A DNA stretch of 46,524 nucleotides from assembly GCA_021201315.1 (NCBI GenBank), contig JAJQFG010000052.1, positions 1 through 46,524 of the forward strand, in the 5' to 3' direction. A program made the position numbers and the translations under genes. Numbering within the stretch: position 1 is the first letter of the stretch; each line of letters starts with the position of its first letter. This DNA comes from Erysipelotrichaceae bacterium (lineage in GTDB: Bacteria > Bacillota_I > Bacilli_A > Erysipelotrichales > Coprobacillaceae). This document shows positions 11,199-16,226 of the stretch, piece after piece. The notes under the pieces are model-generated. The model saw only the letters and a program-made list of their open reading frames with translations. It ran no database searches and was not told the origin of the DNA.

Positions 11199-12710
11199 AT
11201 GGCATATTTTTTTGAAGAACCATCACATACATTTAATGAATACTTATTGGTACCAGGATACTCTAGTGCCCAGTGTCAAACAAAAAATGTAAGCTTAAAA
11301 ACACCTTTGGTGAAATACAAAAAAGGTCAAGAAGAACCAGCATTATCTTTGAATATTCCTTTAGTTTCAGCTATCATGCAATCAGTATCCAATGATACAA
11401 TGGCAGTAGCTTTAGCACGTGAAGGAGGATGTTCATTTATTTATGGTTCACAATCTATTGAATCACAAGCAGAAATGGTTAGAAAAGTCAAGGCTTATAA
11501 AGCTGGTTTTGTACCTAGTGATTCTAATATTTCACCAGAATCTACGTTAAAAGATGTGATAGAACTCAAAGAAAAGACAGGACATTCAACTATGGCTGTT
11601 ACAGTTGACGGGACTGCTAATGGGAAACTAGTAGGTATTGTAACAGGTAGAGATTATCGTATTTCACGTATGTCGCTTGATGATAAAGTGAAAGACTTTA
11701 TGACACCTTTTGAAAAATTAGTCACTGCTAAAAGTGGAACAACTTTAAAAGAAGCTAATAATATTATTTGGGATCATAAATTAAATGCTTTACCTATTAT
11801 TAATGATGATCAAACATTAGATTCTTTTGTTTTTAGAAAAGATTATGATTCAAGAAAATCCAATCCTAATGAATTATTGGATGAAGATAAACGTTATATT
11901 GTTGGAGCTGGTATTAATACTAGAGACTATGCCCAAAGGGTTCCTGCATTAGTTGAAGCTGGAGCTGACATACTATGTATTGATTCTAGTGAAGGTTTTA
12001 CTGAATGGCAAAAGATTACCTTAAAATGGATTAGAGATCATTATGGTGATAGTGTTAAAGTTGGTGCTGGAAATGTTGTTGATAAAGATGGGTTTAGATT
12101 CTTAGCTGATTGTGGTGCTGATTTTATTAAGATTGGTATTGGTGGCGGTTCTATTTGTATTACTCGTGAACAAAAGGGTATTGGTAGAGGTCAAGCTACT
12201 GCTACGATTGAAGTTGCCAAAGCTAGAGATGAATATTTCAAGGAAACTGGTATTTATATTCCGATCTGTAGTGATGGTGGTATTGTCCATGATTATCATA
12301 TGACTTTAGCTTTAGCTATGGGTTCTGATTTTATTATGTTAGGAAGATATTTCTCTCGTTTTGATGAATCACCTACAAACAAGGTAATGATCAATGGTCA
12401 ATATATGAAAGAATACTGGGGTGAAGGTAGTGCAAGAGCGCGAAACTGGCAAAGATATGATATGGGTGGCGATGAGAAATTATCATTTGAAGAAGGCGTA
12501 GATTCTTATGTTCCTTATGCTGGTTCTTTAAAAGATAATGTTGGTTTATCACTTGCTAAAATTAAATCAACAATGTGTAACTGTGGTGCTTTAACTATTC
12601 CTGAGCTTCAACAAAAAGCTAAAATTACACTTGTCTCTTCAACAAGTATTGTTGAAGGTGGTGCCCATGATGTTGTATTGAAAGATTCAACACCATCAAT
12701 TAATCAATAA
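11199..12710 (+). CDS. guaB: Inosine-5'-monophosphate dehydrogenase, Tritrichomonas-like type
   Basis: Seen: a TIM-barrel IMPDH of 503 residues with a CBS pair inserted at about 95-220. The active-site loop is [17 protein letters not shown] with catalytic Cys320, and the flap contains [11 protein letters not shown]. Typical bacterial GuaB has GPGSICTTRxVxGVG in that loop, so this is a distinct subtype. From memory, the loop, the flap, the C-terminal stretch ([12 protein letters not shown]) and the length match the IMPDH of the protist Tritrichomonas foetus very closely. Reaction: IMP + NAD+ to XMP + NADH, the first committed step to GMP. It has its own promoter and terminator and is not linked to guaA. 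Confidence is high for function. Confidence 0.95.
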
Positions 12711-12732
12711 AAGTGTCTAGGACACTTTTTTC
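12711..12732 (+). terminator. Intrinsic terminator after guaB
   Basis: AAGTGTC/GACACTT stem with loop TAG, then TTTTTCTTTT. Confidence 0.85.
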
Positions 12733-12734
12733 TT

Positions 12735-12755
12735 TTGTAACAATTGACATTACAA
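12735..12755 (+). promoter_or_regulatory. Predicted Rrf2 operator, copy 1
   Basis: Perfect inverted repeat TTGTAA-N9-TTACAA. It overlaps the -35 box (TTGACA, 12744-12749) of the rrf2-family gene, so binding would block its own promoter. The same repeat occurs twice upstream of the macrodomain operon. Confidence 0.65.
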
Positions 12756-12772
12756 CAAATATTCTTTATAAT
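12744..12772 (+). promoter_or_regulatory. Promoter of the rrf2-family gene
   Basis: Consensus TTGACA (12744-12749), 17-base spacer, TATAAT (12767-12772). The -35 lies within the TTGTAA-N9-TTACAA repeat. Confidence 0.85.
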
Positions 12773-12789
12773 CTCATTGAGGTGATATT

Positions 12790-13233
12790 ATGCAGATATC
12801 CAGTCGTTTTACGATTGCAGTCCATGTTCTAACATGTATTGATACATTTAAGAATGAAAAGGTAACAAGTGAATTTTTAGCATCAAGCGTGCAAGTTAAT
12901 CCTGTGATTATACGTAAAATATTATCACAGCTTAAAGCTGCTGATATCATTAAGGTTCAACGTGGTTCAGGAGGATCGACCATTATCAAACCATTGAATG
13001 AAATTACATTTTATGATATTTATGAAGCAGTAGAATGTATTAACAATGATGAATTATTCCATTTTCATGAAAACCCTAATCAAAATTGCCCTGTAGGAAG
13101 AAACATTCATCATGCTTTAGATGATAAACTCCAACAGGTTCAAACAGCTTTAGAAAACGAACTCAAACAAATCACATTACAGGATGTTATAGATGATACA
13201 AGAAAATATATTGAATTAAAAACACTCAAATGA
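12790..13233 (+). CDS. Rrf2 family transcriptional regulator (YwnA-like)
   Basis: Seen: 147 residues. The N-terminal winged helix includes SSRFTIAVHVLTCI, VNPVIIRKILSQLKAADII and QRGSGGSTIIKP, the classic Rrf2 DNA-binding block. In place of the three-cysteine Fe-S motif of IscR/NsrR there is NPNQNCPVGRNI with a single cysteine (about residue 98), as in YwnA-type members that respond to thiol or other stress signals. Inference: a redox- or electrophile-sensing repressor of itself and of the downstream macrodomain-sirtuin operon, because the same inverted repeat overlaps both promoters. RBS GAGGTGAT is 6 bases before the ATG. A terminator overlaps its stop codon, so the downstream operon is a separate transcript. 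Confidence 0.88.
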   Translation: MQISSRFTIAVHVLTCIDTFKNEKVTSEFLASSVQVNPVIIRKILSQLKAADIIKVQRGSGGSTIIKPLNEITFYDIYEAVECINNDELFHFHENPNQNCPVGRNIHHALDDKLQQVQTALENELKQITLQDVIDDTRKYIELKTLK

Positions 13234-13246
13234 GTGTTTTTATTTA
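13220..13246 (+). terminator. Intrinsic terminator of the rrf2-family gene
   Basis: AAACACTCA/TGAGTGTTT stem overlapping the stop codon, followed by a T-rich tract. Confidence 0.8.
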
Positions 13247-13252
13247 TTTTTG

Positions 13253-13273
13253 ATGTAACTATTGACATTACAA
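13253..13273 (+). promoter_or_regulatory. Predicted Rrf2 operator, copy 2
   Basis: ATGTAA-N9-TTACAA (one base off the perfect repeat), covering the -35 box TTGACA of the macrodomain operon in exactly the same register as copy 1. Confidence 0.6.
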
Positions 13274-13290
13274 CGAAGATAATGTATATT
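13262..13290 (+). promoter_or_regulatory. Promoter of the macrodomain-sirtuin operon
   Basis: TTGACA (13262-13267), 17-base spacer, TATATT (13285-13290); predicted start near 13297. It is flanked and overlapped by two TTGTAA-N9-TTACAA-type repeats. Confidence 0.8.
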
Positions 13291-13309
13291 GTAATAAATC
13301 TAGTTACAA
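13289..13309 (+). promoter_or_regulatory. Predicted Rrf2 operator, copy 3
   Basis: Perfect TTGTAA-N9-TTACAA repeat covering the end of the -10 box and the start site of the operon. Its centre is 36 bases from that of copy 2, between three and three and a half helical turns. Confidence 0.6.
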
Positions 13310-13324
13310 CGAAAGGAAAACACT

Positions 13325-14095
13325 ATGAATCAAATTGAACGTCTTGATTATCTTATAAATTATTTATTAGATGAATCTGAAATCATTACTTATATACCTA
13401 AAACATTATCAGATAAAAAACTATTACTTAGAACACTTATGAATATTCGTGAACCAAAACCTATCAGTAAAGAATTTATATCAATTCAAGATGCTTATCT
13501 ACAAGAAGAATTAGCAAATAAAAAAGTAACTGGCATATCTCAATTAAAACTATTACAAGATCATATATATCTTTATCAAGGAGATATTACTTTACTTAAA
13601 GTAGATGCGATTGTCAATGCAGCCAACAATCAAATGCTAGGATGCTTTATACCCAATCATCGATGCATCGATAATGCTATTCATACTTATGCAGGCATCC
13701 AATTACGATTAGAATGTTACAACATCATGAAAGTACAGGAAACATTAGAACCAACAGGTAAAGCTAAAATCACTAAGGGATACAATCTACCTGCAAACTA
13801 TGTTATTCATACGGTTGGACCTATTATTCAAGGAAAACTGACGAATCATGATTGTGAGTTATTAAAGTCATGTTATAGATCATGTTTAGAACTTGCTGAT
13901 GCTTACCAATTGAAGTCTCTAGCTTTTTGTTGCATCTCTACTGGTGAATTTCGTTTTCCTCAATATGATGCGGCTACTATAGCTATCGAAACAGTTAAAG
14001 AATATATACAACAAACACATACAGAAATGGAGGTTATTTTTAATGTATTCAAAGATGAAGACAAACAAATTTATGAACAAATACTTAAAACTTAA
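13325..14095 (+). CDS. Zinc-dependent macrodomain (protein-ADP-ribose hydrolase)
   Basis: Seen: a helical N-terminal extension (residues 1-80), then a macro domain with YLYQGDITLLKVDAIVNAAN. Next comes the Zn-macro signature GCFIPNHRCIDNAIH (about 117-131), whose cysteine and histidine residues are the expected zinc ligands. The phosphate-binding block is CCISTGEFRFPQ (about 207-218). Family knowledge: Zn-dependent macrodomains encoded beside class M sirtuins remove ADP-ribose from the protein the sirtuin modifies. The 256-residue length fits that group. The sirtuin gene begins 53 bases before this gene ends, so the two are tightly coupled. RBS AAAGGA upstream. Predicted control is by the adjacent Rrf2 protein. 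Confidence 0.92.
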   Translation: MNQIERLDYLINYLLDESEIITYIPKTLSDKKLLLRTLMNIREPKPISKEFISIQDAYLQEELANKKVTGISQLKLLQDHIYLYQGDITLLKVDAIVNAANNQMLGCFIPNHRCIDNAIHTYAGIQLRLECYNIMKVQETLEPTGKAKITKGYNLPANYVIHTVGPIIQGKLTNHDCELLKSCYRSCLELADAYQLKSLAFCCISTGEFRFPQYDAATIAIETVKEYIQQTHTEMEVIFNVFKDEDKQIYEQILKT

Positions 14096-14897
14096 ACAAG
14101 TTATTAATGATTGTGATGCTATTATTATTGGTGCTGGATCAGGATTATCAACGGCCGCAGGATTATCTTATAGTGGTCCTGTATTTGAAGATAATTTTTC
14201 TGATTTTATTGATAAATATCATTTTGCGGATATGTATACAGCTGGTTTTTATCCTTTTGAGGATTTAGAAGAATATTGGGCTTATTGGAGTAGACATATT
14301 TATCTTAATCGTTATAAAGAGCACGATTTAAAGGTATATAAAGATTTATTTGAACTTATAAAAAATAAAGATTACTTTGTTTTAACAACTAATGTTGACC
14401 ATTGTTTTCAAAGAAGTGGTTTTGACAAAAAACGTTTATTTTATATTCAAGGAGATTATGGATTATTTCAATGCAGTAAACCCTGCAAGCAAATTACTTA
14501 TGACAATAAGGAACAAATCACAAAAATGATAGAATATCAAAATCATATGAAAATACCTACTGATATGATTCCATATTGTCCAATATGCGGAGCACCTATG
14601 ACAACCAATCTCCGTTGTGATAACACATTTGTTGAAGATGAAGGTTGGCATAAGGCATCTGAAAGATATAGTGATTTTATTAGAAGACATCAAGATATGA
14701 AGATAGTATATTTAGAAATAGGTGTTGGAGAAAATACACCAAGTATTATTAAGTATCCATTTTGGCAGATGACTTATCAAAATAAAAATGCTATCTACGC
14801 ATGTATTAATCCAAATACTTATTGTCCAACACAAATTGAAAATCAAAGTATCCTTATATCAGAAAAAATTAACACAGTATTGGAGGCATTAAAATGA
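14043..14897 (+). CDS. Class M sirtuin (SirTM), protein ADP-ribosyltransferase
   Basis: Seen: a 284-residue sirtuin fold with the NAD loop GAGSGLSTAAGLSYSG (about 30-45) and TTNVDHCFQRSG in place of the usual TQNID. YIQGDYGLFQCSKPC with CPICGAP gives four zinc-ribbon cysteines, and RCDNTFVEDEGWHKA follows near residue 198. Family knowledge: SirTM enzymes ADP-ribosylate rather than deacetylate; the described Staphylococcus and Streptococcus versions modify lipoylated GcvH-L, encoded in the same operon with LplA2. Neither partner gene is in this window. GGAGG lies 9 bases before this ATG, inside the macro gene, which fixes the start. The next gene overlaps by ATGA. Confidence 0.9.
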   Translation: MYSKMKTNKFMNKYLKLKQVINDCDAIIIGAGSGLSTAAGLSYSGPVFEDNFSDFIDKYHFADMYTAGFYPFEDLEEYWAYWSRHIYLNRYKEHDLKVYKDLFELIKNKDYFVLTTNVDHCFQRSGFDKKRLFYIQGDYGLFQCSKPCKQITYDNKEQITKMIEYQNHMKIPTDMIPYCPICGAPMTTNLRCDNTFVEDEGWHKASERYSDFIRRHQDMKIVYLEIGVGENTPSIIKYPFWQMTYQNKNAIYACINPNTYCPTQIENQSILISEKINTVLEALK

Positions 14898-15286
14898 ATG
14901 ATTTTGAACAATTGAATCAATTAGTAGAAACTTATAAAGATACGATTAGTAGTCACAATGAACAACAATTTAGAAATTTATGGAGTCAAAAACAATCGTG
15001 TTCATTAATATCCATTACTAAACAGTATAATGGAATTGATTCTATATATAATGATTTTTTGAATGGTGTTATAGAAAGTAATTATCAAAGTATAAAATTA
15101 ATAGAAGATAATCCTCATGAAATAAGATTCATTGATGATAATACTGCAATTATTATCTTTAAATATCATACTGAATGTATTAGACGTGATACTTTAGAAG
15201 AATATGGTATTGAAGGCTTAGAAACACAAATAGCTATCAAAGAAAATAATCAATGGAAACTGGTTCATATACACTATTCTAAATAA
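14894..15286 (+). CDS. NTF2/SnoaL-like small protein of the sirtuin operon
   Basis: Seen: 130 residues with an alpha+beta order. N-terminal helices (LVETYKDTISSHNEQQFRNLW) are followed by strands ending IAIKENNQWKLVHIHYSK, the usual C-terminal signature of SnoaL/DUF4440-type NTF2-like domains. The protein has no signal peptide or membrane segment. It starts with ATGA overlap on the sirtuin gene and is followed by a perfect terminator, so it is the last gene of the operon. Family knowledge: NTF2-like folds act as small-molecule enzymes, binding modules or partner domains. Inference: it may be the ADP-ribosylation target, an adaptor, or an enzyme acting on the released product. No substrate can be named. 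Confidence 0.75.
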   Translation: MNDFEQLNQLVETYKDTISSHNEQQFRNLWSQKQSCSLISITKQYNGIDSIYNDFLNGVIESNYQSIKLIEDNPHEIRFIDDNTAIIIFKYHTECIRRDTLEEYGIEGLETQIAIKENNQWKLVHIHYSK

Positions 15287-15439: not shown

Positions 15440-15748
15440 ATGAAAATATTATTAGTATGTAATTTAGGAATGTCAACGAGTATGTTGGTGCAAAGAATGG
15501 AAGTGGCTGCTAAAGAACAAAATATCGATGCCCAAATTATGGCTGTTCCATTTACTGAAGCTGAAGAACATGTTGCAGAATGGGATGTCATTCTGTTAGG
15601 ACCACAAGTCAGACATCAATTAAAAGCAATGGAGAAAAAGGCTGCAGGAAAAACACCAGTTGCGGTGATTGATATGCGTGATTATGGCATGATGAATGGT
15701 GAGAAGGTATTACAAAGTGCTATCAAGATCATTGAAGAAAATAAGTAA
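15440..15748 (+). CDS. PTS lactose/cellobiose-family EIIB, copy 1
   Basis: Seen: 102 residues with the phosphocysteine loop VCNLGMSTSMLVQRM, so the phosphorylated residue should be Cys7. The C-terminal half has VILLGPQVRHQL and PVAVIDMRDYGMMNG, typical of chitobiose/cellobiose EIIB. Family knowledge: EIIB passes phosphate from EIIA to the sugar bound by EIIC. The next gene is a close paralogue (most residues identical by eye), so this is a tandem duplication. No EIIA gene lies nearby. RBS AAAGGAG before the ATG. Sugar specificity cannot be read from the sequence. Confidence 0.93.
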   Translation: MKILLVCNLGMSTSMLVQRMEVAAKEQNIDAQIMAVPFTEAEEHVAEWDVILLGPQVRHQLKAMEKKAAGKTPVAVIDMRDYGMMNGEKVLQSAIKIIEENK

Positions 15749-15917: not shown

Positions 15918-16226
15918 ATGAAAATATTATTAGTATGTAATGCTGGTATGTCAACAAGTATGTTGGTGCAAAGAATGGAGAAAGCTGCAAAAGAAGATGG
16001 TATCGAAGCAGAAATTAAGGCAGTTCCATTTACAGAAGCTGAGAAAATGATAGCAGATTGGGATGTCATTTTGTTAGGGCCACAAGTTAGACACCAATTG
16101 AAATCATTAGAGAAAAAAGCCGAAGGAATTACACCGGTTGCAGTCATTGATATGCGTGATTATGGAACTATGAATGGTGAAAATGTCTTAAAAGCTGCTT
16201 TAAAAATTGTTAGTGAAAATAAATAA
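15918..16226 (+). CDS. PTS lactose/cellobiose-family EIIB, copy 2
   Basis: Seen: 102 residues, collinear with copy 1, with VCNAGMSTSMLVQRM (phosphocysteine Cys7), VILLGPQVRHQL and VIDMRDYGTMNG. Changes from copy 1 are mostly conservative and include an Ala for Leu in the active loop (CNAG versus CNLG). That loop is where EIIB meets EIIA and EIIC, so the two copies may serve different partners. It has its own leader and ribosome site (GAAAGGAG), and it is followed by a 466-base gap with terminators before the EIIC gene. Confidence 0.93.
   Translation: MKILLVCNAGMSTSMLVQRMEKAAKEDGIEAEIKAVPFTEAEKMIADWDVILLGPQVRHQLKSLEKKAEGITPVAVIDMRDYGTMNGENVLKAALKIVSENK

Follow-up and report, generated by a model that had tools for sequence, protein, structure and literature searches.

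Predicted shared control of an rrf2 gene and a macrodomain-sirtuin operon by a single-cysteine Rrf2 protein in an Erysipelotrichaceae bacterium

Operons in which a SirTM-class sirtuin adjoins a Zn-dependent macrodomain have been reported to be induced by oxidative stress in S. aureus and S. pyogenes, and the available text of these reports gives nothing beyond "oxidative stress" as the trigger and mentions neither Rrf2 nor a repressor (PMC4518038, PMC11490716). The same pairing of genes occurs in the window, by which we mean the whole 46,524-nt stretch of Erysipelotrichaceae DNA that was analyzed, where it is preceded by a gene for an Rrf2 protein. This raises the question of whether that protein governs the operon, and if so, through which sites and in response to which signal.

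Promoters, operators and genes around rrf2

The preliminary description of this DNA had reported three copies of an inverted repeat, TTGTAA-N9-TTACAA, placed over the promoters of rrf2 and of the macrodomain gene, and had assigned both transcripts to one Rrf2 regulon. The features that we located are listed here by position.

12709..12729, + strand: terminator-like hairpin 3' of the IMP dehydrogenase gene (-8.3 kcal/mol, z -2.7)
12735..12755, no strand: predicted single operator of the rrf2 promoter, TTGTAACAATTGACATTACAA, with the -35 box within it (motif search)
12744..12772, + strand: predicted rrf2 promoter, TTGACA-17-TATAAT (12/12 consensus bases)
12790..13233, + strand: rrf2, for a SifR/YwnA-type Rrf2 repressor of 147 aa with a putative sensor, Cys100, in NCPVG
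13217..13242, + strand: terminator at the boundary of rrf2 and the operon (-12.6 kcal/mol, z -5.0)
13253..13273, no strand: predicted operator O1 of the operon promoter, ATGTAACTATTGACATTACAA, with the -35 box within it (motif search)
13262..13290, + strand: predicted operon promoter, TTGACA-17-TATATT (11/12 consensus bases)
13289..13309, no strand: predicted operator O2, TTGTAATAAATCTAGTTACAA, covering the end of the -10 box and the start region (spacing from O1, 36 bp)
13325..14095, + strand: Zn-dependent macrodomain (predicted protein ADP-ribose hydrolase), 256 aa (NF003163, 361.5 bits, cut-off 272; PDB 8rsi, 2.1e-86)
14043..14897, likely start 14073, + strand: SirTM-class sirtuin (PDB 5a3a SirTM, 2.5e-75, match from residue 11)
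14894..15286, + strand: NTF2/SnoaL-like protein, 130 aa, third gene of the operon (Pfam CaMKII_AD, 8.6e-7; SnoaL_3, 3.1e-4)

All three copies of the repeat were found where they had been described, the first and third without mismatches and the second with one. Copies 1 and 2 contain the -35 box TTGACA in the same register, at offset 9 (12744-12749 and 13262-13267), and the -10 boxes, TATAAT at 12767-12772 and TATATT at 13285-13290, each follow at 17 bp. Copy 3 includes the last two bases of TATATT and covers the expected start site, again in agreement with the earlier account, and the terminator that had been placed between rrf2 and the operon was recovered as an 11-pair stem with a T-rich tail. 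The three copies in the window are split between two types of promoter, a one-operator type at rrf2 and a two-operator type at the target operon.

The ORFs for the macrodomain, the sirtuin and the NTF2-like protein adjoin or overlap one another, and a single operon is therefore likely; the overlap of the macrodomain and sirtuin ORFs amounts to up to 53 nt (14043-14095). Judged by its structural matches, the sirtuin is nearer to SirTM than to deacylase sirtuins (5a3a, 2.5e-75; 8rsn fusion, 1.2e-21), and its closest named SirTM records came from two Erysipelotrichaceae MAGs (L034 and L035, 88-89% identity). The extended-operon genes GcvH-L and LplA2 were absent from the gene content of the operon, and a search for a GcvH-like lipoyl carrier gave no GCV_H match anywhere in the genome. 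Because no GcvH-type protein was found in the genome, we regard the operon as a simple pair with an added NTF2-like gene, unlike the extended SirTM operons associated with lipoylation. Beyond it lie two adjacent and similar PTS IIB-type genes (15440-15748 and 15918-16226), followed by a PTS IIC gene.

The regulator and the distribution of its sites

The protein encoded by rrf2 matched the Pfam Rrf2 domain (PF02082; E 1.5e-33; 116 bits vs a cut-off of 30), and its nearest solved structures were PDB 1ylf (1.8e-37) and 1xd7, which is B. subtilis YwnA (1.9e-30). Cys100 was kept in 48/48 collected Rrf2 relatives, in a few of which the Pro or Val of the CPVG context is replaced by another residue, while the other cysteines were not fixed among close relatives (Cys16 in 30/38, Cys83 in 24/38). 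In a structure model (mean pLDDT 86), Cys100 is predicted to stand immediately before a long helix (residues 101-127). With an Rrf2 domain, a CPV cysteine at the modeled helix start and TGTAA-N9-TTACA sites before both its own gene and its target, the window Rrf2 is, on sequence and model, a single-cysteine protein of the SifR/YwnA type. An Fe-S Rrf2 (IscR, NsrR, RirA) was ruled out, as there are no three clustered Cys ligands and close relatives have a single Cys there.

This class has been characterized in S. pneumoniae. The portions of that work available to us describe TGTAA-N9-TTACA as the operator of both SifR and S. aureus HypR, report that quinone attack on the CPV cysteine of SifR frees the DNA and that the affinity of SifR increases with operator symmetry, and name catE, ywnB, yhdA, fre and piu as SifR targets, with no sirtuin among them; of these, YwnB, a quinone reductase, is proven to be under SifR control (PMC9218516). 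As described there, S. pneumoniae SifR and B. subtilis YwnA share with the window protein the Rrf2 fold, the single CPV Cys at a helix start and the operator (PMC9218516). HypR, of the hypR-merA system, is likewise an Rrf2 protein with an identical core operator (PMC9218516, in the same portions); it senses HOCl/HOSCN via a Cys33-Cys99' disulfide and controls merA, according to the available part of PMC10715087. Unlike HypR, the window protein scored 71.7 bits against NCBIfam NF041852, below the cut-off of 180, and it was ruled out as a HypR equivalog.

The repeat of the preliminary description consists of the core TGTAA-N9-TTACA (19 bases) plus one base per side. When 1000 windows were simulated with a second-order Markov model of the window, three sites with at most one mismatch never fell within 600 bp (0/1000), and two perfect sites occurred anywhere in 1/1000. 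A spacing test in the window with TGTAA-Nk-TTACA (k from 3 to 15) gave three matches at k=9 and one at all remaining k together. The exact core was found at 18 sites in the genome (2.99 Mb) vs 6 for the reversed-pattern control, whereas the long motif was not enriched when mismatches were allowed, either in the window with two (9 matches vs 12.5 expected) or in the genome with one (39 vs 66 for the reversed-pattern control). Random occurrence throughout the genome, which had been named beforehand as evidence against a regulon, was thus seen for the one-mismatch long motif but not for the exact core. Since the long motif with one mismatch was unenriched, the regulon is to be read from the exact or -35-fused forms, which alone were informative; we rejected the loose counts as uninformative.

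Seven of the 18 exact-core sites lie in promoters, nine fall within ORFs 199-1119 aa long, and the other two (C84, C93) belong to neither group. The promoter sites comprise the three window copies, a pair at C121 preceding the gene for a 131-aa PNPOx protein, a single site at C98 preceding a nitroreductase gene, and another single site at C129. Searching the genome for the -35-fused operator with up to three mismatches ranked the two window promoters and C121 first (0 mismatches), followed by C54 (1), where a nitroreductase gene is divergent from an Rrf2 paralogue, and C98 (2); eleven matches had three mismatches, among them a pair at C129 next to another Rrf2 paralogue. In the window's own genome, no ywnB-type gene was found behind any of the detected operator sites. 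The two paralogues (C129, C54) are 30 and 33% identical to the window Rrf2 and also contain CPVG, and the sites beside them are more degenerate than those of the window; as both adjoin similar sites, there may be cross-talk from them. The regulon proposed earlier, of rrf2 and the sirtuin operon, held up in that both transcripts very probably belong to it, but its limitation to those two was too narrow, as the PNPOx gene and probably the nitroreductase genes have to be added.

The surroundings of two of these sites contained further genes of related function. At C121, an FMN riboswitch (RF00050, 89.7 bits; L002:953-1064, - strand) lies between the operator-bearing PNPOx gene and an ORF of 204 aa, which we take to be a riboflavin transporter, and a ferredoxin-PNPOx gene comes after this ORF, such that flavin supply adjoins the flavin-enzyme regulon. 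At C129 (L011:1-3601), an old-yellow-enzyme/pyridine-nucleotide oxidoreductase gene is convergent with the Rrf2 paralogue, on whose other side a two-operator promoter precedes a small cysteine-rich ORF.

Conservation of the operators across genomes

We compared 43 genomes of the family, scoring the Rrf2 as present at 50% identity or more and counting the fused operator at no more than one mismatch. The fused operator occurred in 24/27 genomes with this Rrf2 vs 1/16 without it (p 7.8e-8, a value which, like the others given here, overstates independence because the genomes are related by descent), and the reversed-pattern control had one match in all 43 genomes. The three Rrf2-bearing misses were G029, in which a two-operator rrf2 promoter was missed only through mismatches, and G030 and G031, in which no operator was found and rrf2 lies close behind the upstream reading frame. 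Where this Rrf2 was lacking, the one genome with a fused operator was G003 (35% paralogue only), which carried two operators at the promoter of the PNPOx gene that also has them here; G009, G013 and G033, with only 28-44% Rrf2 relatives, had no operator; and G040 (89% complete), with a SirTM and no Rrf2 detected, had a weak promoter of the two-operator type ahead of a YwnB gene. SirTM itself was encoded in 30/43 family genomes, and an operator lay within 5 kb upstream of it on the same strand in 18/25 genomes with Rrf2 vs 0/5 without. A second family of the order (272 genomes) gave two-operator promoters in 6/23 genomes with Rrf2 vs 3/249 without (p 1.3e-5, or 3.2e-6 on including the pairs of G084 and G120, which were left out because they are 54 bp apart and have no -35).

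The genes directly behind such promoters included rrf2 (21), YwnB homologues (11) and genes for ferredoxin-PNPOx (7), SnoaL (6), macrodomain (5), PNPOx (4) and MFS (3) proteins. The YwnB homologues of the relatives matched PDB 4r01, S. pneumoniae YwnB, at 4.4e-69, so that relatives of the window genome, like S. pneumoniae as the available text describes it (PMC9218516), have a YwnB-type quinone reductase among their targets. The content of the regulon thereby joins the operator and the cysteine in tying this group to the SifR class.

Promoters of rrf2 and of other genes differed in the number of their operators. A second operator was present in 0/21 rrf2 promoters vs 44/49 promoters of other genes among all those collected, and in 0/18 vs 31/35 after exclusion of loci that had been fetched by the pair pattern; promoters with O1 at two or more mismatches were uncounted, which drops G029 and the C129 promoter of the window's genome, and G029, with two operators at rrf2, is an exception to the one-operator rule. 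Two-operator target promoters are thus usual here, unlike SifR, for which one operator per gene is described in the available portions of PMC9218516.

Across the order, two-operator pairs were found in 31/315 genomes vs 0 for the reversed control. Their start-to-start spacing was 42 bp in 28/45 pairs, and the remaining pairs were spaced at 28, 36 (2), 38, 40, 41, 43 (3), 46, 48 (2), 49 (3) and 54 (2) bp. The 36 bp of the window recurs in that list only in its nearest relative, G001, and the value in G002, from the same genus, is 42. The 42-bp spacing stands before unrelated genes with differing spacer sequences and equals four helical turns (4.0); as O1 is tied to the -35 box and O2 to the start site, polymerase alone could set this distance. 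A strict rule of helical phase was dropped, given that 36 and 48-49 bp recur and that polymerase sites additionally fix the position of each of the two operators. When O1 and O2 were compared in 39 modules, they were more alike in inverted orientation in 21 and in direct orientation in 6, with 12 ties, a weak tendency among modules that are not independent. Three consecutive operators were seen close to rrf2 in G154 (C50:29388-29486) and G186 (C27:71783-71871).

Predicted control of the operon and competing explanations

Given the identity of the operator, the cysteine signature and the co-occurrence of operator and Rrf2, the locus is best read as one in which the Rrf2 protein controls both its own gene and the macrodomain-sirtuin operon, as the preliminary description had supposed. 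Very probably, positions 12735-13309 hold two promoters governed by the intervening SifR/YwnA-type, single-cysteine Rrf2 as a sensor of redox or electrophile stress, where binding, repression, the chemistry of the cysteine and the inducer are what we infer.

The sites might instead be bound mainly by the C129 or C54 paralogue, or by all three Rrf2 proteins in a shared network, and the CPVG cysteines and adjoining TGTAA-type sites of both paralogues are consistent with this, as is the PNPOx promoter of G003, with its two operators alongside only a 35% paralogue. We consider this improbable, given that the operator tracks the orthologue of at least 50% identity (24/27) and is missing from the three genomes with 28-44% relatives, and that the paralogue-adjoining sites are more degenerate. 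Several regulator families use short AT-rich palindromes with TGT/ACA ends. A regulator of this kind, of the GlnR/TnrA or Rex type, could bind here with the adjacency of rrf2 being incidental, but this is very improbable in view of the exact N9 in the window (three matches vs one at other k), its agreement with the SifR/HypR spacing published in the available part of PMC9218516, and the co-occurrence of the fused operator with rrf2 (24/27 vs 1/16 genomes). Least probable of all, to the point of being scarcely credible, is that the repeats are a by-product of AT-rich promoter sequence: the one-mismatch counts of the long motif (39 vs 66) fit such an origin, but the exact core (18 vs 6), the simulated windows (0/1000) and the two-operator pairs (31/315 genomes vs 0) do not, and the conservation of these pairs across species with differing spacers already contradicts it.

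Under control by the SifR/YwnA-type Rrf2, reduced dimers would bind TGTAA-N9-TTACA. At the rrf2 promoter, one dimer on the -35 box would block polymerase, giving an autoregulation that is probably leaky and keeps repressor present, and at the macrodomain-SirTM-NTF2 promoter repression would be tighter, with O1 placing a dimer on the -35 box and O2 another across the end of the -10 box and the start site. Modification of Cys100 by a quinone or another thiol-reactive compound would release the dimers and induce the operon, together with the PNPOx gene and probably the two nitroreductase genes elsewhere in the genome; the ADP-ribosylation pair would be expressed alongside flavin-dependent reductases.

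More tentatively, and as a possibility rather than an expectation, we suggest that ADP-ribosylation by SirTM and the Zn-macrodomain could be an arm of the response of gut Erysipelotrichales to quinones or electrophiles, with a SifR-like Rrf2 as its switch. This Rrf2 would act through paired operators, at which a spacing of 42 bp would set two dimers, often mirrored, on one face of the DNA, with rrf2 itself under a single operator, and the substrate would then differ from a GcvH-type lipoyl protein. The regulator class and its operator are known, but in the open-licence literature, as far as its available text extends, we saw no report of the two-operator layout or of SirTM/Zn-macrodomain operons under Rrf2 control; we found no link there between an Rrf2 protein and SirTM, and the accessible part of PMC12710355 names HypR together with the S. 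aureus sirTM operon in a single passage, unlinked. With a sensor class whose chemical trigger is known and operators conserved over many genera, the trigger of the operon is now testable, and the two-operator signature is usable to map electrophile regulons in gut bacteria that have received little study.

It would be wrong to extend Rrf2 control to SirTM operons in general. Among 62 SirTM loci, several of them short or truncated, the exact fused operator lay upstream in only six (L034, L035, L047, L066, L073 and L085), and L072 had a one-mismatch fused operator 2.3 kb upstream of SirTM. L066, from a MAG labelled Spirochaetales, contains a cluster of SnoaL, rrf2, PNPOx, macrodomain and SirTM genes with fused operators, reflecting either transfer or misbinning. 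The Thomasclavelia MAG L047 belongs to the family and shares an identical MFS protein with G039, in which four SirTM-like genes stand in tandem (C284:2813-6682; 32-38% identity to the query), one of them with an in-frame stop.
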